Assembly (NCBI RefSeq): GCF_014489115.1
Contig: NZ_JACTAH010000002.1
Span: 62,001-126,000, forward strand
From: Thauera sedimentorum
Lineage (GTDB): Bacteria; Pseudomonadota; Gammaproteobacteria; Burkholderiales; Rhodocyclaceae
Length of the DNA: 64,000 bases
Reading direction: 5' to 3'
The position numbers and the translations under genes were made by a program. Each line of letters starts with the position of its first letter. Position 1 is the first letter of the stretch. Below are positions 4,848 to 64,000 of this stretch, piece by piece. Below the pieces are notes generated by a model, which saw only the letters and a list, made by a program, of their open reading frames with translations, searched no databases and had not been told where the DNA came from.

Positions 4848-5663
4848 ATGGATAGCCAGAAAGAGATCACGATCCTGATTCCCAACTACCGCACGCCGGA
4901 TATCACCAAGATCTGCATGCGCCTGCTGCGCAAGCACACGGATCTGAGCCGGGTTCGGGTCGTCGCGATCGACAACGACTCCAAGGACGAGTCCCTTGCC
5001 TACCTCCGCTCGCTCAAATGGATAGACTTGATCGAGCGTAAAGCTGAGGCCGACGACACCCCGCCGCGCTCCCATTCGAGGGCACTCGACCTGGCGCTGC
5101 AGACTGTCGACACGCCCTACGTCCTGTCCATCCACACAGACACGTTCGTGAAACGGGACGACTGGCTGGATGTACTGCTCGCACCCTTCAAGGCGGATTC
5201 CAATGTCGCCGGGGTGGGTTCATGGAAGCTGGAATCCAAGACGCGCCTTGAAATCCTCGGACGCAACATCGAGAAGGCCTGGAAGCTCGCACTGTACCGC
5301 CTGACCGGCATCCGCACCTTCCACCCCATTCGTTTCGACGAAAGCCTGCATTACCTGCGCAGCCATTGCGCCATGTACCGCACCGACGTCATCCGCAAGC
5401 TTGGCACCGGGTTTGCCGATGGCAACAGCACGGCGGGCAGCGTCATGCACCGTAAGATGGTCGAAGCCGGATATCGCATGGTCTTCCTCGAATCCGAACA
5501 GCTCGGTCAATACGTGGATCACCTCAACCACGCCACGATGGTTCTCAATCCCGAACTCGGCAGCAAGCAGCGCAGCATTCGCGAAGGCCACAAGCGCATT
5601 CGCCAGAAACTCAGGGGCATCGACGCGGTGGGTCTGCTGTCCGATGACAGCCTTGACCGCTGA
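4848..5663 (+). CDS. GT2-family glycosyltransferase
   Basis: A 271-residue GT-A fold enzyme. The N-terminal nucleotide-sugar site is ITILIPNYRTPD followed by VVAIDNDSKDES, and a DxD-like motif is in LSIHTDTFVKRDDW. There are no membrane segments, so it should act on the cytoplasmic face, probably adding a sugar to the LPS core given its place among core kinases and transferases. It starts 38 bp after the preceding kinase and is separated from the next gene by 9 bp. Donor and acceptor are unknown. Confidence 0.8.
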   Translation: MDSQKEITILIPNYRTPDITKICMRLLRKHTDLSRVRVVAIDNDSKDESLAYLRSLKWIDLIERKAEADDTPPRSHSRALDLALQTVDTPYVLSIHTDTFVKRDDWLDVLLAPFKADSNVAGVGSWKLESKTRLEILGRNIEKAWKLALYRLTGIRTFHPIRFDESLHYLRSHCAMYRTDVIRKLGTGFADGNSTAGSVMHRKMVEAGYRMVFLESEQLGQYVDHLNHATMVLNPELGSKQRSIREGHKRIRQKLRGIDAVGLLSDDSLDR

Positions 5664-5672
5664 ACGCCGCGC

Positions 5673-7106
5673 ATGACGGCCGACAACTGCTCCGCTCTGC
5701 CACCACCCTTGCTCGGCCGTGATGCGCTGCTCGCAGCCGGCCGCACGCCACCCCTGCCGTGCAGGATCTCACTCGACGACGGCAGCCTGCTGATTCTGCT
5801 CCGTACGTTGCGCGTTCTACCCGGTCAGCGCCTCGTGGCCGAAGCACGCTGGGAAGACCGCCCGGTCCTTGCCAAGCTTTACCTCGACGGCGATGCCGCC
5901 CGCCACGCCACGCGTGAAGCCGCGGGTCAGGGCAAGCTGGCTGCCGCCGGTCTGCCCACGCCAGCATTGCTCGCCCGCAGGCAAAGCACCGACGGCATGG
6001 CGATACTGCTGACCACCTGGCTCGACGGCGCGATGACACTCGCCCAAGAGCGGCCCTCCGCTCGGCCCCTGCAGGCGCTCGACGATGTGCTTGAACTGAT
6101 TGGCCGTCTGCATGCCGCCGGCCTCATCCATAGCGACCTGCATCCAGGCAATCTGCTGCAACACGACGGCCGCTGGTATCTGATCGACGGCGATGCGATC
6201 TCCGATGCGACAACATTGAACGCCCGGACGGACAACCTCGCGCTTTTTCTTGCTCAGTTCACCGGGCCAGACGCACCATCCGCGGCCGACGCCCTACCGG
6301 CCTACCGTCGCGGGCTGGGAGCGGGCCTTGCAGCGCCGGAAGCGCCTGCGCTCGCAAGCCGCGTCGAGCGCACGCTCGCGACCCGGCTACAGCGCTATAT
6401 GGAAAAAACCGGTCGTGACTGCACCCGCTTCGTCGCACAGCAGAGCCTCTCGCGAAGAACCCTGATCAGTCGCACCGAAGCCAATTGGCTCGCCCCGCTG
6501 CTTACCGATCCCGACCACTGGCTGGAGCAGGGCAAGCGGCTCAAGAGCGGGCGCAGCGCCACCGTCGCGCGCGTGGCGTCAGGGGGCCATGATTGCGTGA
6601 TCAAACGCTATAACCTGAAGAATCTTGCCCATGCTGCACGGCGCGCACTACGTCCGACCCGTGCCTGGCATGCCTGGCGAGAGGCCCATCGGCTGACGTT
6701 TCTCGGCATCCCTACCCCGGCCGCGCTGGCGGTGGTGGAGAACCGATTCGGCCCCTTACGCGGTCGGGCGTGGCTGGTCACCGCCTGGTGCGAGGGCCCC
6801 AGCCTCCGCGAACTGTTCGCCCGCCGAGAAGACCAGACGCCCAACACCGACGAGGCCCGAGCATTGACCGAACTGTTTGCCGCACTGCACCGCCACCGCG
6901 TCACTCACGGCGATCTGAAGGCAAGCAATCTGCTCTGGTGCGATGGGCGCTTTCATCTGATCGATCTCGACGCCACGGTGCAACACCACAGCAACAATGC
7001 CTACCGCAAGGCCTGGGCACGCGACCGCGCCCGACTGCTGGCGAACTGGCCCGCAGGCAGTCGCATTGCGCAGTGGTTCGACACCCACCTGCCGGCGGCA
7101 AACTGA
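5673..7106 (+). CDS. tandem LPS-kinase-like protein (two kinase domains)
   Basis: A 477-residue protein made of two RfaP/InaA-like kinase domains. Domain 1 (about 40-200) has K68, E82, HSDLHPGN (H153, D155, N160) and LIDGDA (D172). Domain 2 (about 285-460) has K311, E337, HGDLKASN (H412, D414, N419) and LIDLDA (D431). Both therefore keep the full catalytic set. From memory, P. aeruginosa has a similarly long kinase-like protein near waaP (WapQ/PA5006 region), so this may be its counterpart. Substrates are unknown; two different core hydroxyls is the simplest inference. Confidence 0.8.
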   Translation: MTADNCSALPPPLLGRDALLAAGRTPPLPCRISLDDGSLLILLRTLRVLPGQRLVAEARWEDRPVLAKLYLDGDAARHATREAAGQGKLAAAGLPTPALLARRQSTDGMAILLTTWLDGAMTLAQERPSARPLQALDDVLELIGRLHAAGLIHSDLHPGNLLQHDGRWYLIDGDAISDATTLNARTDNLALFLAQFTGPDAPSAADALPAYRRGLGAGLAAPEAPALASRVERTLATRLQRYMEKTGRDCTRFVAQQSLSRRTLISRTEANWLAPLLTDPDHWLEQGKRLKSGRSATVARVASGGHDCVIKRYNLKNLAHAARRALRPTRAWHAWREAHRLTFLGIPTPAALAVVENRFGPLRGRAWLVTAWCEGPSLRELFARREDQTPNTDEARALTELFAALHRHRVTHGDLKASNLLWCDGRFHLIDLDATVQHHSNNAYRKAWARDRARLLANWPAGSRIAQWFDTHLPAAN

Positions 7107-7120
7107 AGACCTCGCCCCAC

Positions 7121-8077
7121 ATGAGAATGGACACTTCCGCCCAGCACCCGCAGCCCTCGGTCGCAATCACGGTCATCATCCCGGCCTACAACTATGCGCA
7201 CTATCTGCCCCGGGCTCTGGATTCGGTTTTCCGGCAGAGCTTTCCGCCGGTCCGCATCGTGGTGGTTGATGACGGCTCAACCGATGACACGCCTGCCGTG
7301 CTCGAGCACTATCTGGCCAAGGCCCCCGCAGCCCCCGAGTTGCTGACCTTTCGCCAGATCAACCAGGGACCATCGGCCGCCCGCAATCACGGCATCCGGC
7401 AGGCCATTGGTGACTACATCGTTTTTCTCGACGCGGACGACGCGCTGCTTCCCGATGCGCTGCATCAACTCGCGTCCGCGATCACGGCCTTTCAAGAGCC
7501 GGCCATGGTGTTTGGTGGCCGCTACGCAGTGGGCGAAGACGGCCATCGCACCGTCCGACCCGCTTACGTCCTCAGCGGCGAGCGTGAGCGCGATTTCGCG
7601 GCTTATGTAGAGGGCCGCTTCCGCATCTCCAACGGCACCGCGGCAATCGCCCGCCAGGTCTTTGAGCGCATCTCCTATCCCGAGGATCTGCGCAACAACG
7701 AGGACATGGTGGTCGACGCCCTCATCCTCGCCAACCACGCATGCCGTTCGATTACCACGCCGGTCGCCGAGATTCACGCTCATCCCGGGCGCCTGCGCAA
7801 TGCCGTCTCGGACAGACTGGACAACGCCCTTGAACTAACCGAGCGGATCTTCGACCCCGAGCAGATGCCGGTCGACCTGATGCGCTTCAAGGCTCCATTT
7901 CTTGCCCGCAGGTATCTATCGCGCTTCAGAAGCTTCTATCGCGCGGGCGACCGGCGCCGCGCCCTGGACAACTTCATGCACGCCTTGCGTATCGAACCGC
8001 GTCAGGCGCTGAAACCCGATTACCTGCTCAAGGCGCTCGCTTGCGTGTTGAGACGCAGCCATACCTCGGAATCCTGA
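7121..8077 (+). CDS. GT2-family glycosyltransferase
   Basis: A 318-residue GT-A enzyme. The start at 7121 gives a short leader and then VAITVIIPAYNYAHYLPRAL, with VVVDDGSTDDTP and the metal-binding FLDADDALLPD. The region after residue 150 (NNEDMVVDALIL) carries the typical catalytic-base ED. It sits 14 bp after the tandem kinase and ends 1 bp before the next start, so it belongs to the same operon. It probably extends the LPS core; the sugar is not predictable. Confidence 0.82.
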   Translation: MRMDTSAQHPQPSVAITVIIPAYNYAHYLPRALDSVFRQSFPPVRIVVVDDGSTDDTPAVLEHYLAKAPAAPELLTFRQINQGPSAARNHGIRQAIGDYIVFLDADDALLPDALHQLASAITAFQEPAMVFGGRYAVGEDGHRTVRPAYVLSGERERDFAAYVEGRFRISNGTAAIARQVFERISYPEDLRNNEDMVVDALILANHACRSITTPVAEIHAHPGRLRNAVSDRLDNALELTERIFDPEQMPVDLMRFKAPFLARRYLSRFRSFYRAGDRRRALDNFMHALRIEPRQALKPDYLLKALACVLRRSHTSES

Positions 8078-8078
8078 C

Positions 8079-8888
8079 ATGACCGCAAGACCCATAAAAC
8101 TGTTCTGGTGGCAGGGCGACGGCGCCCACGACGTCTCGCGCAGAAACTTCGGCGACTATCTATCCCCTCTGATCGTGGAGATGGTCTCCCGGCGACCGGT
8201 AGTGTTCGCACCGGTCGCGAGTGCCGACATGCTTGCCATAGGCACCATCCTGAAACGGGAGCGCCAGGCCAGATTCTTCGGCTTTCCGCGCAAGCTTCAC
8301 ATATGGGGGAGCGGGGCTGGAAAACCCGACGAGCGCTTTCCCGCGCGCCACTACTATCACGCTGTTCGCGGCCACCTGACGCTCGCAAGGATCAAGGCCA
8401 CGGGAGGAGCATCACCCGCGCTCGGCGATCCCGGCATTCTCGCAGGGCGATATGTCGATGGCAGGCAGGCGCCCGACAAGACATTCACGCTGGGGATCAT
8501 TCCTCACTTCGTGGACCAGTCTCTGAAAGCCGTTACGGAGATCGGCTCACGCCCCAACACATTGGTCATCAATGTGTTCGATCCCGTCGACAGCGTGCTC
8601 GAACAGATCAGGAGGTGTCACTTCATCCTGTCATCGAGCATGCACGGGCTGATCGTCAGCGATGCCTTCGGCATTCCCAATCGGCGCATTCTGCTCTCCG
8701 ACAAAGTGAAATCGTCGATGAAGTTCGAAGACTACTATTCGATCTACGGACTGCAGGAACCTCAGCCGCTTACTCCGGCAGAAGTACTCGACCCGCGCTT
8801 CAAGCTGGACCTCATTGCAGAAAGCTATGCTCGCCCGGGTCTGCAGGCGCTTCAGGATCGCCTTGCAGCCGCATTTCCAGACCTGTAG
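8079..8888 (+). CDS. polysaccharide pyruvyl transferase family protein
   Basis: A 269-residue protein with the hallmarks of the polysaccharide pyruvyl transferase family: N-terminal FGDYLSPLIVEMVSRR and C-terminal SSSMHGLIVSDAFGIPN. Family members transfer pyruvate ketals from PEP, or act as related GT-B-like sugar transferases on surface glycans. It is the last gene of the plus-strand core operon; msbA converges on it 50 bp downstream. Pyruvylation of the core is an inference from family and location only. Confidence 0.78.
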   Translation: MTARPIKLFWWQGDGAHDVSRRNFGDYLSPLIVEMVSRRPVVFAPVASADMLAIGTILKRERQARFFGFPRKLHIWGSGAGKPDERFPARHYYHAVRGHLTLARIKATGGASPALGDPGILAGRYVDGRQAPDKTFTLGIIPHFVDQSLKAVTEIGSRPNTLVINVFDPVDSVLEQIRRCHFILSSSMHGLIVSDAFGIPNRRILLSDKVKSSMKFEDYYSIYGLQEPQPLTPAEVLDPRFKLDLIAESYARPGLQALQDRLAAAFPDL

Positions 8889-8938: not shown

Positions 8939-10738
<1,800 letters not shown>

Positions 10739-10881
10739 CGTTGGAGGAATCCGGCACGGACAGGGCCGCGATGGTAACACGGGCGTGTTGCCACGAATGC
10801 GCGCGCGGGTCGCCTGGCTTACAATCCGCAGTCCTCGCCGGGCGGCGCCATGGAGCCCGCCATGCGCGCGTTACTAGCGTC

Positions 10882-60609: not shown

Positions 60610-60975
60610 ATGAAAACCATCTTCCTGGTCGATGATTCCGCAACCATCCTGCTGAGCATCTCCGGCATCCTGAGCAAGGCGGGCTATGGCGTGGAGAAGG
60701 CCGGCAACGCACAGGAAGCGATGAAGAAGTTCCAGGCCGGGGTCAAGGTGGACCTGCTGATCACCGACCTCAACATGCCCGGCATGAACGGCATCGAGTT
60801 CATCAAGGAAGTCCGCAAGCTGCCGGGCTACCGCTTCATGCCCATCCTCTTCCTCACCACCGAATCGCAGCAGTCGAAGAAGGCCGAGGCCAAGGCCGCC
60901 GGCGCCTCCGGCTGGATCGTCAAGCCGGCCTCGGCCGACGAGCTGCTCAACACCATCAAGCTGGTCATGCGCTGA
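60610..60975 (+). CDS. cheY: CheY-like single-domain response regulator
   Basis: A 121-residue receiver with acidic pocket D8-D9, phosphorylation site D53 ([13 protein letters not shown]), Thr83 and K105 (GWIVKPAS). It is the output of the adjacent CheA, either to the flagellar motor or to another target. First gene of the operon; 19 bp to the receptor gene. Confidence 0.93.
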
Positions 60976-60994: not shown

Positions 60995-62263
60995 ATGGAC
61001 TTCAATGCCCTCCTCCGCCGCTCAATACTGGTCGCCACCGTGGTTGCGCTGGGGGCGGGCACCACGGTCTTCTTCCTCAACGAATGGTTCCACGAGGACT
61101 TCCTCGCCGGGCTCAACATCGCCCAGCCGCTGGGCGATGCGGTCGGCACCGTGCTCATCGTCGCGGTGGCCACGCTGGCCCAGCGCCTGGTGTCGCTGGC
61201 CTTCTTCCGCGACCACATGTTCGGCCTGACCTCGGTGCAGGAGAGGATGGAGTTCTCCTCGCGCAACGTGGTCGCGGTCAACGAGGAAGTCTCCAAGGAA
61301 CTGCGCACGGTGCCGACCTACAACGGCGTGCTGCGCGACCAGCTCGACAGCGTGATCCAGCAGACCGAGCAGGCGGCCTACGACATCACCAGCCGGCTGC
61401 AGGCGATCGACGAAGTCGTCAGCCGTCTCAACGGCTTCGTCGCCGAAAGCTCGTCGGCCTCCAACCAGCTGGCCGAGCACTCGGAAGAGAACATCGAGCA
61501 CAACCAGCGCCTGATCGGCGAGATGCGCGAATACATCGAGGCCCGCATCGCCGAGGCCCAGGCCGACCAGGAGCGCGTGGCGCAGGTGGTCGGCGAGGCG
61601 CGTTCGCTGGAGTCGCTGACCAAGCTGATCAAGGACATCGCCGCGCAGACCAACCTGCTGGCACTCAACGCCGCCATCGAAGCGGCCCGCGCCGGCGAGG
61701 CGGGGCGCGGCTTCGCGGTGGTGGCCGACGAGGTGCGCAAGCTCTCGGCGGAAACCGAAAAGGCGGTGCTGGCGATCAACCAGGGCATCCAGGGCGTGGC
61801 CACCACCATCGAGGTGCAGCTGCAGGAGAAGCTCTCGGCCATCAACCTCGACCGCGAGAAGGCCGCACTCGGCCAGTTCGCCGACCAGCTGGTGCAACTC
61901 GGCGGCAGCTACGAGGAGATCCTCCGCCACCAGGCCACGGTGATCGACACCGTGCGCGGCAGCAGCGAGGAACTGGCGGTCATGTTCATGGATACCATGG
62001 CCAGCGTGCAGTTCCAGGACGTCACCCGCCAGCAGATCGAGCACACCGCCCAGGCCCTGCAGCGCCTGGACGAACACCTGGCCGGCCTGGCCGAGCGCCT
62101 GGTCCAGGCCGAGAACCCGGACTTCAAGTACGTTCCGCTGGCCGAACACCTGGAGCAGCTGTACTCCCAGTACGTCATGGAAAGCCAGCGCAGCACCCAC
62201 AAGCACAGTCTGCACCAGAAGGACGAACCGGCTGGCGGCAGTCCCAAGATAGAACTGTTCTGA
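60995..62263 (+). CDS. methyl-accepting chemotaxis protein with CheZ-like motif
   Basis: A 422-residue receptor. Two N-terminal helices (about 12-28 and 48-64) enclose only about 20 periplasmic residues, so there is no external ligand domain. The signalling hairpin tip is intact ([20 protein letters not shown] near 215-234; [14 protein letters not shown]). After it, FQDVTRQQ (F340-Q347) aligns with the CheZ active site FQDLTGQ, giving D342 and Q346 at the CheZ D143/Q147 spacing. The tail ends GGSPKIELF, similar in character to CheZ's CheY-binding tail. It may sense internal state and also dephosphorylate CheY. Confidence 0.85.
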
Positions 62264-62289: not shown

Positions 62290-62607
62290 ATGAGCAAGAA
62301 GAAAAGCACCGTCCAGCGCCTCGCGATCGTCGAGGACATGACCATCTACAACGCCATGATGCAGAAGCAGTCCCTGGTCGAGGCGCTGGCTGCCTGCGAC
62401 GAACTGGAACTGGACCTGTCCACCGTGGCCGAGATCGACACCGCCGGCTTCCAGCTGCTGGTGCTGGTCAAGCGCGAGGCCGCGCGCCTGGGCAAGCAGG
62501 CCCGCATCGTGGCGCACAGCCAGGCCGTCAGCGAAGTGGTCGATTTCTTCAACATGGCAGCCCACTTCGGCGATCCGATGCTGGTGCCCGCACAGGAGGC
62601 GCGCTGA
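62290..62607 (+). CDS. STAS-domain protein
   Basis: A 105-residue STAS (anti-anti-sigma-like) domain. The conserved phosphorylatable region is ELDLSTVAEIDTAGFQLL, where the usual Ser/Thr after DTAG is replaced by Phe next to Ala-Gly, so classical SpoIIAA-type phosphorylation is doubtful. It stands between the receptor and cheA, 3 bp before cheA, implying a role in the chemosensory complex. Confidence 0.82.
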   Translation: MSKKKSTVQRLAIVEDMTIYNAMMQKQSLVEALAACDELELDLSTVAEIDTAGFQLLVLVKREAARLGKQARIVAHSQAVSEVVDFFNMAAHFGDPMLVPAQEAR

Positions 62608-62610
62608 ACG

Positions 62611-64000
62611 ATGGATGAGATCACCTCCGTCTTCGTCACCGAGAGCCGCGAGCAGCTAGAGGCCATGGAGGCCGCGCTGCTGCAACTCGAGGACAGCCCC
62701 GACGACGCCGACATCCTCGGCGCGGTGTTCCGCGCCGCACACACCATCAAGGGCGGCGCCGGCGTCATCGAATGCGGCTTCCTGGTCGCCTTCACCCACG
62801 TGGTGGAAAGCGCGCTGGACAAGCTGCGCAACGGCGAGATTGCCGCGAATACCGACCTGATCGCCCTGCTGCTGGCCTGCTCGGACCACATGGGCAACCT
62901 GATCGGCGTGCTCGAATCCGGCGCCGACGCGCCCGATGCCGACCTGCAGGCCGAAGGCGACGGCCTGCTCGCCCGCCTGCAGCGCGACTGGCTGTCGGGC
63001 GCCGGCGCCGCTCAGGACAGCGGCCACGCGCCGCCGGCACCGAAGTCCGAGGAAGTGCTGGCCAGCGGCGGCGGCGTGGTGGAGACCGATTGCTGGCACA
63101 TCTCGCTGCGCTTCGGCCCGGACGTGCTGAAGAACGGCATGGACCCGCTGTCCTTCCTGCGCTACCTCGGCACCCTGGGGCGCATCGAGCGCATCGAAAC
63201 CCTGGCCGACGCCATGCCGCCGGCCGACGAGATGGACCCGGAGTCCTGCTACCTGGGCTTCGAGATCAGCTTCGCCTCGGACGCCGACAAGGCCGCCATC
63301 GAGCGGGTGTTCGACTTCGTACGCGACGACTGCACCCTGCACATCCTGCCGCCGCGCAGCCGCCTGGCCGACTACATGCAGCTGATGATGGCGCTGCCGG
63401 AAGACCCGATGCGCCTGGGCGAGATCCTGGTGCGCATCGGCGCGCTGACCCAGGCCGAACTGGACGAAGGCCTGCGCGCGCAAAGCGGCACCGGCGAGCC
63501 CGCCGAAGGCGGCGAAGCGGCGGCGCCCGCCCCGCTGGGCGAGATCCTCATCGAGCAGAAGGTGGTGCAGCCCGAGCTGGTCGAGGCCGCGGTGGTCAAG
63601 CAGAAGCAGGTCAGCGACAAGAAGGCCGCCGAAGCGCGCCTGATCCGCATCCAGGCCGACAAGCTCGACCGCCTGATCGACCTGGTCGGCGAGCTGGTGA
63701 TCGCCGGCGCCAGCGTGAACCTGCTCGCCAGCCGCGCCGGCCAGGCCGACCTGACCGAGGCCACCTCCATCGTCAGCCGCCTGGTGGAGAGCATCCGCGA
63801 CTCCGCGCTGCAACTGCGCATGGTGCAGATCGGCGAGACCTTCAACCGCTTCAACCGGGTGGTGCGCGACGTCTCCAAGGAGCTCGGCAAGGACATCGAG
63901 CTGGTCATCTCCGGCGGCGACACCGAGCTCGACAAGTCGGTGGTGGAGAAGATCGGCGACCCGCTGATGCACCTGGTGCGCAACGCCATCGACCACGGCA
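62611..64000 (+). CDS. cheA: chemotaxis histidine kinase CheA (3' end beyond window)
   Basis: The frame is open from the ATG at 62611 to the window end (463 codons). The N-terminal Hpt domain has the phosphorylated H44 in RAAHTIKGGAGV. A middle region (about 145-265) includes CWHISLRFGPDVLKNGMDPL, a further regulatory domain, then the dimerisation helices (RIQADKLDRLIDLVGELVIA) and the ATPase N box HLVRNAIDHG at the very end. The G boxes and CheW-like domain lie outside. Confidence 0.94.
   Translation, partial: MDEITSVFVTESREQLEAMEAALLQLEDSPDDADILGAVFRAAHTIKGGAGVIECGFLVAFTHVVESALDKLRNGEIAANTDLIALLLACSDHMGNLIGVLESGADAPDADLQAEGDGLLARLQRDWLSGAGAAQDSGHAPPAPKSEEVLASGGGVVETDCWHISLRFGPDVLKNGMDPLSFLRYLGTLGRIERIETLADAMPPADEMDPESCYLGFEISFASDADKAAIERVFDFVRDDCTLHILPPRSRLADYMQLMMALPEDPMRLGEILVRIGALTQAELDEGLRAQSGTGEPAEGGEAAAPAPLGEILIEQKVVQPELVEAAVVKQKQVSDKKAAEARLIRIQADKLDRLIDLVGELVIAGASVNLLASRAGQADLTEATSIVSRLVESIRDSALQLRMVQIGETFNRFNRVVRDVSKELGKDIELVISGGDTELDKSVVEKIGDPLMHLVRNAIDHG

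Follow-up and report, generated by a model that had tools for sequence, protein, structure and literature searches.

The chemoreceptor encoded at 60995..62263, close to the end of the window (by which we mean the whole stretch of 64,000 nucleotides analysed here), carries in a long helix a motif that corresponds to the active-site dyad of CheZ, and ends in a conserved peptide that accompanies this motif. We consider it probable that this membrane-anchored receptor doubles as a CheZ-type phosphatase for the adjacent CheY, a reading of its sequence that would entail both catalysis and CheY binding. The gene (ATG start, ORF of 422 aa; all window features given here lie on the + strand) belongs to the start of a chemosensory cluster at the window end, composed of cheY (60610..60975; a single receiver domain, 121 aa; PF00072, E=5.4e-26), the receptor gene, a gene for a STAS-domain protein (62290..62607; 105 aa; PF13466, E=8.2e-12) and cheA (62611..64000), which runs beyond the window edge and is present as a complete copy (736 aa) in the host-genome locus L035. 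Downstream of cheA, this locus continues with a receptor gene, cheW, a further receptor gene, cheR, cheD (whose product ends RRKSE) and cheB. The first-pass annotation had put cheY at the operon start, and cheY does lie directly upstream of the receptor gene. Its product has the conserved set D53, N55, T83, E85 and K105, at a constant offset of 4 from E. coli CheY, in which we take the counterparts to be D57, N59, T87, E89 and K109.

The protein has two predicted transmembrane stretches (approximately residues 9-29 and 48-72, 61019..61210; Kyte-Doolittle scan) and an MCP signalling tip (residues 192-276, 61568..61822; PF00015, MCPsignal, E=7.7e-25), and its score of 88.2 bits against the Pfam cut-off of 34.6 identifies it as a chemoreceptor. 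Beyond the tip lies the CheZ-like helix (residues 293-371, 61871..62107; PF04344, E=0.0012, sub-threshold, and hhalign), which contains FQDVTRQQ (residues 340-347, 62012..62035), corresponding to the CheZ DxxxQ dyad: D342 (62018-62020) is its first residue and Q346 (62030-62032) its second, with FQ preceding the dyad. The motif sits about 107 residues beyond the hairpin tip, in approximately the region that holds the C-terminal methylation sites in receptors of E. coli. From residue 418 the protein ends in KIELF (62246..62260), which its conservation and its co-occurrence with the motif lead us to propose as a CheY-docking tail. The ORF coordinates and the numbering of D342 and Q346 had both been given correctly by the first-pass annotation, FQDVTRQQ starting at residue 340; its suggestion that signal reception resides in the same molecule is unsupported, because the receptor has no sensor domain: Pfam found neither a ligand-binding nor a HAMP domain at E<=1, and only some 20 residues separate the two hydrophobic stretches. 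An AlphaFold model of the full receptor from an 81-row alignment gave one continuous helix without a hairpin (pTM 0.38) and was uninformative, and a phmmer search of PDB sequences with the tail alone returned three matches, all at E>=0.06 and none chemotactic.

Conservation in close homologs singles out both elements. A search with residues 275-422 found 422 homologs, of which 120 were listed and the 110 of 400-445 aa were aligned; since the query was this C-terminal portion, the sample favours the tail stretch. Among the matches listed, D342 and Q346 are each identical in 110/110 aligned homologs, as are the whole of Q339-D342, R345, Q346, E349 and the final ELF, so the acidic and hydrophobic C-terminal tail noted at first reading is indeed a conserved feature. 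Identity to the window receptor reaches down to 43% in a 29-member subset, and the nearest named homologs among the matches listed are from Pseudothauera and Azoarcus. One homolog (P0035, 584 aa) carries a sensor of the four-helix-bundle type and a HAMP domain ahead of the same CheZ-like tail, motif included, which suggests that the tail may be exchangeable as a module and provides an existing sensing version of a tail-bearing receptor. At least three homologs among the matches listed (P0077, P0084 and P0101) bear a precomputed CheZ domain, so that public annotation already hints at a link between receptor and CheZ.

Measured against single sequences, the similarity to CheZ stays below the family thresholds. 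PF04344 gave E=0.0012 and 19.2 bits on the window receptor against a cut-off of 30.7, and NCBIfam Phos_CheZ matched residues 307-367 with E=0.0074 and 15.8 bits against a cut-off of 350. No receptor scanned reached the Pfam CheZ cut-off (30.7), the best being P0084 with 29.4. A CheZ match at E<=0.1 was absent in three of ten close homologs scanned (P0018, P0082 and P0035); among a further five motif receptors a match at E<=0.01 was found in L038 only; and none of the three McpA-like receptors (L252, L253 and L255) gave a Pfam CheZ match at E<=0.01. Members of the family are matched as well by unrelated coiled-coil models, with E-values of about 1e-3 to 1e-4. We have rejected the DxxxQ motif as proof of CheZ membership, the scores lying below the family cut-off.

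Comparison of profiles gives a clearer signal. The 110 tails aligned with 120 close CheZ proteins with a score of 35.7 (P=1.1e-4, 68 columns), against 14.4 for reversed CheZ and 18.5 for the signalling tip; the receptor N-terminal helix, used as a coiled-coil control, scored 24.5 against CheZ (P=0.0048) and 23.0 against reversed CheZ, the former falling between background and the 35.7 of the tail. The score rose to 38.9 (P=5.1e-6), over 66 ungapped columns, when 68 diverse receptor tails selected for having motif and tail were set against 37 more diverse CheZ proteins; the controls gave 20.6 for reversed CheZ (P=0.01), a maximum of 18.8 for 60 column-shuffled CheZ profiles, and 19.2 (P=0.025) for 70 ordinary receptor tails. 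Masking the nine motif columns brought the scores down to background: one CheZ set gave 19.5 (17.5 with its reversed version) and the other 17.8 (20.9 reversed). The statistical link to CheZ therefore depends on the motif, although with both CheZ sets the alignment kept its diagonal after masking. Homology from the flanks alone was accordingly rejected. Ordinary coiled-coil similarity, which the first-pass annotation had itself raised as an explanation, is opposed by the reversed, shuffled and ordinary-tail controls, all below 38.9.

A tail profile (A2) matched in 32/299 genomes of the phylum and 15/150 of the order; in the host genome its only other match was the genuine CheZ (E=2.8e-4). No CheZ match was found in 19/32 of the A2-positive genomes; among these 19, several of the A2 matches are proteins whose receptor domain, if any, stays below threshold, and some of the assemblies are incomplete. 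A profile built from 23 diverse tails (A4) matched in 68/79 genomes around G190 and in 32/79 around G216; its further matches were largely CheZ, many being CheZ-sized, and a hand comparison of coordinates showed the CheZ gene among them in 14/22 CheZ-bearing genomes, but not in the other 8. Calculated at a period of 3.5 after removal of the motif columns, the heptad phase, measured from the hydrophobic face, sets D and Q of 73 receptors at 98 and 149 degrees, and those of 37 CheZ proteins at 106 and 157 degrees; at a period of 3.6 the angles are 76 and 116 degrees in the receptors versus 125 and 165 in CheZ. The sequence-derived phase would turn the two residues to the side of the helix that they occupy in CheZ, with the agreement counting as modest support because heptads allow only about seven phases. 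The CheZ-like motif that the first reading had picked out matches CheZ in its residues, in its helix face as judged from sequence, and in its position within a long helix, and the profiles favour CheZ over ordinary receptor tails.

The motif and the tail occur together well beyond the close family. In a wider set of 193 distinct receptor ORFs from the loci examined, 73 combine QxxDxxxQ with a terminal [IVLF]x[LF]F, 0 have the tail alone, 4 have a motif match alone and 116 have neither; many or most of the tail-receptor loci had first come to light through tail profiles of which the motif is a part. Among the 118 receptors not found by tail profiles, part of which came from a scan with ASVQFQD as one of two patterns, both features are present in 9, the tail only in 0, the motif only in 3 and neither in 106. 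Each of the 73 tail receptors has the motif once, 75-100 residues past the tip signature, in 28 distinct 8-letter versions that always keep D and Q while the three intervening residues vary; conversely, receptors of the 193-ORF set without the [IVLF]x[LF]F end also lack the motif at its place, L229 excepted. The receptor of L229 has the motif QFQDRVSQ in a frame that ends SQLTK, with no tail, perhaps by a frameshift or a real loss. In the three other motif-only receptors (QINDAMSQ, QLADALQQ and QITDACGQ) the pattern is matched by other residues, which we read as chance. The receptors of L241, L243 and L244, which lie beside cheB, have QVEDIINQ or QVEDIISQ, with V in place of F and with D and Q kept.

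The tail varies from KIELF in the window receptor to EVELF, DIELF and DITFF elsewhere. A pattern of the type [SAT]Qxx[IVLM][DESQN] is present in the last 20 residues of 19/73 tail receptors (for example SQESIDEGEVELF) versus 1/120 of the others, and CheZ proteins end in SQDEVDDLLSSLGF or, in other lineages, in SQDDIDAILAMFD and AQDDIDKLFG; the KIELF of the window receptor is without the SQ part seen in some of these CheZ ends. In E. coli CheZ it is the C-terminal end that binds CheY. A figure legend likewise marks the C-terminal region of CheZ as involved in CheY binding (PMC7750401).

A DxxxQ helix motif and a similar tail are also present in proteins of L050, L052, L056, L057, L058, L062 and L063 in which an MCP match is absent or sub-threshold, and the proteins of L052, L057, L058 and L063 gave no Pfam match at E<=0.01. 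Such motif-and-tail proteins without an over-threshold MCP match are, judged by these two elements, possible candidates for stand-alone CheY phosphatases. In L253, a stage-1-type F7 cluster, the CheD (5582-6145, +) ends GDIELF and the motif receptor two genes on ends GEVELF, and the two ends may possibly form a shared docking peptide. Since such a tail occurs on a CheD, its presence by itself is no mark of a phosphatase.

Gene order links these receptors to cheY. In 8/8 close-family loci (L037, L067-L070 and L083-L085) the order is cheY-receptor-STAS-cheA, and in a second group, which includes L046, L048, L074, L076, L086, L089, L093, L098, L100 and L111, it is receptor-cheY-STAS-cheA. By hand count, 27/33 loci of one set and 35/52 of another have a cheY-like gene immediately next to that of the receptor; of the other 17/52 loci, nine have the receptor beside cheB and eight have no strong cheY in the short flanks covered. 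In L252, whose receptor is nearest to one from Pseudomonas sp. SCB32 (90%), the motif receptor is followed by cheY, cheA, cheW and an McpB/Aer2 gene (Pfam McpB_HAMP); a 300-aa ORF of this locus was dropped as cheR, as it gave no Pfam match. In L253, cheW, cheW, an Aer2-like receptor, cheR, cheD, cheB, the motif receptor and a STAS gene are followed by a response regulator that carries a SpoIIE phosphatase domain.

The host genome has three CheA matches and 32 MCP matches. As to a separate cheZ, a point raised by the first-pass annotation, the genome does have one CheZ (C1:1135245-1135838, 264.9 bits), which counts against the proposal; it lies on another contig next to a different cheA, and a profile search of the host genome gave no CheZ match within the receptor's own cluster. 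The [IVLF]x[LF]F tail occurs in 0/27 other host-genome receptor ORFs of the set examined, in which two of the 32 MCP matches are not represented. The two other receptors encoded in the L035 cluster (6864-8510 and 9140-10879) end DFERF and AFERF and fit the CheR-tether pentapeptide; with their endings set against KIELF, there would be a division of labour within one cluster.

In the mechanism that we propose, the window protein would be an array-type, membrane-anchored chemoreceptor whose descending helix bears a CheZ-type phosphatase site; its C-terminal peptide would dock the CheY encoded by the neighbouring gene, D342 and Q346 would then be presented to the active site of CheY~P, and Q346 would orient the attacking water, as Q147 does in E. 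coli CheZ. A cluster with its own cheA and cheY, and no cheZ, would in this way possess a private off-switch at the array. We infer, then, that the receptor binds CheY, catalyses its dephosphorylation and is specific for the CheY of its cluster; that receptor conformation gates the phosphatase activity is a speculative addition. Against the phosphatase reading stand the CheZ scores below cut-off, the background level reached with the motif masked, the separate CheZ of the genome and the lack of an SQ part in KIELF.

These same observations have to be weighed under other readings. Tail and motif could form a CheY anchor without catalysis, which would hold CheY or CheY~P at the array or feed it to CheA; the likeness of the tail to the CheY-binding ends of CheZ, the adjacent cheY and the tail of the L253 CheD, which is not a phosphatase by family, would all suit such an anchor, but it would not need D and Q fixed amid varying neighbours, nor the helix face of CheZ, and we regard it as rather unlikely. 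Neither do we favour a docking or structural element for some other partner (the CheB receiver domain, CheA, the STAS protein or receptor packing), in which the likeness to CheZ would be convergence on a short helical motif. Such an element would agree with the background-level CheZ similarity beyond the nine motif residues, with the invariance of QFQD, R345, Q346 and E349 in the close family, which exceeds what the dyad needs, and with the nine of 52 receptor loci beside cheB that have no strong cheY in the flanks covered; yet the wider set fixes only Q, D and Q, the pairing of motif and tail extends to proteins without an over-threshold MCP match, and the further matches of A4 are largely CheZ, which together make it unlikely.

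It is very improbable that we are looking at ordinary adaptation features, namely a docking pentapeptide for CheR or CheB together with QQ/E methylation sites. The length and position of the peptide would fit, and the motif lies near the C-terminal methylation-site region of E. coli receptors, but KIELF has no aromatic residue at position 2, and the wider family does not preserve the QQ; the CheR-pentapeptide reading of KIELF was rejected. AFERF and DFERF, the ends of the other receptors in the cluster, do fit the pentapeptide, whereas McpA, with a valine at position 2, is described as binding no CheR homolog of four (Ortega 2020, PMC7184735). Least probable of all, and to our minds scarcely credible, is a chance resemblance within a coiled coil: single-sequence CheZ matches are weak, other coiled-coil models match the family at similar E-values and the coiled-coil control reached P=0.0048, but the invariance, the co-occurrence with the tail and the outcome of the profile controls already make chance unlikely. 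A receptor that acts as a phosphatase for its neighbouring CheY is the reading that we retain.

The same features lead to a family of receptors from F7 systems. McpA-like receptors (CttP/PA0180 of P. aeruginosa, VCA1088 of V. cholerae) are described in F7 clusters as a class that could not be assigned, with a highly conserved C-terminus whose role is called 'important yet unclear', and with cheZ, at stages 1 and 2, in F6 systems only; the McpA of that report, with valine at pentapeptide position 2, bound none of four CheR homologs (Ortega et al. 2020, PMC7184735). In a review of the V. cholerae systems, VCA1088 is listed as a 24H outlier for which experimental reports are lacking (PMC7534058), and the parts of these two papers available to us make no mention of a phosphatase role for McpA-like receptors (PMC7184735, PMC7534058). 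The contents of L252 and L253 agree with stage 2 and stage 1, respectively, as told in the part of PMC7184735 consulted. CttP (P0252, 'trichloroethylene chemotactic transducer CttP') has the motif QFQDMGSQ and ends SQNSVNVGEVELF, with a terminal EVELF, and among the listed homologs of the L252 receptor 112/120 have motif and tail, 6 have neither and 2 have the motif only. Taxis to chloroethylenes is reported for CttP in a table (PMC9864684), and our findings do not contradict it.

We therefore put forward, as a serious if still tentative possibility, that a large and unrecognised class of chemoreceptors (CttP/McpA and those of the STAS-cheA clusters of Rhodocyclales, Pseudomonas and Shewanella), along with companion proteins in which no receptor domain exceeds threshold, act on the adjacent CheY as phosphatases of the CheZ type. 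If true, the kinase-control complex and the phosphatase would share one protein lattice, and the place of the motif in the adaptation region would let the receptor state set the phosphatase activity; the conserved, CheR-refusing C-terminus of McpA would be explained, as would signal termination in F7-type systems without cheZ. The chemotaxis phosphatases known to us are soluble CheZ, CheC, CheX and CheT, or FliY in the flagellar rotor, and with the phosphatase built into a receptor the pathway would have a new arrangement. Chemotaxis phosphatases are named in the portions consulted of PMC10579534 and PMC12654446, and in the open-licence literature searched, as far as its text was accessible, we met no description of a chemoreceptor with a CheZ-like site. 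A simple sequence rule, QxxDxxxQ with a terminal [IV]x[LF]F, would then find CheY off-switches in genomes that seem to have none.

Among known systems, CheZ (PF04344, PDB 1kmi) shares with the window receptor FQDxTxQ in a long helix, the heptad phase of D and Q, the association with cheY and a C-terminal peptide of similar letters. Unlike CheZ, the window receptor scores below the family cut-off and has a shorter tail, and CheZ is a soluble protein with neither receptor tip nor membrane anchor. The CheT of Sinorhizobium meliloti, a DXXXQ protein described as enhancing the dephosphorylation of one CheY and as having no significant homology to known chemotaxis proteins (PMC12654446), is a precedent for the motif, which the window receptor has as well, although CheT, known here by description, is not a receptor. 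With Aer2/McpB the window receptor has in common a signalling domain joined to a C-terminal peptide, functional in Aer2/McpB and putatively so here; the Aer2/McpB peptide, unlike that of the window receptor, is a tethering one, such as DWEEF in L252, and CheR-tethering receptors in general are described as carrying x-[HFYW]-x2-[HFYW] pentapeptides (PMC7184735). The window cluster differs from the F7 clusters of McpA-like receptors in having cheY before the receptor gene and a STAS gene between it and cheA, and its host, a relative within the Rhodocyclales, differs from the hosts of those systems. CttP/McpA and VCA1088/Mlp44 are like the window receptor in being short and encoded in a che cluster without cheZ, beside cheY or, for some McpA-like receptors, cheB, and the C-terminus of McpA, as described in PMC7184735, is like the K-I-E-L-F of the window receptor in being conserved and in having no aromatic residue at pentapeptide position 2.
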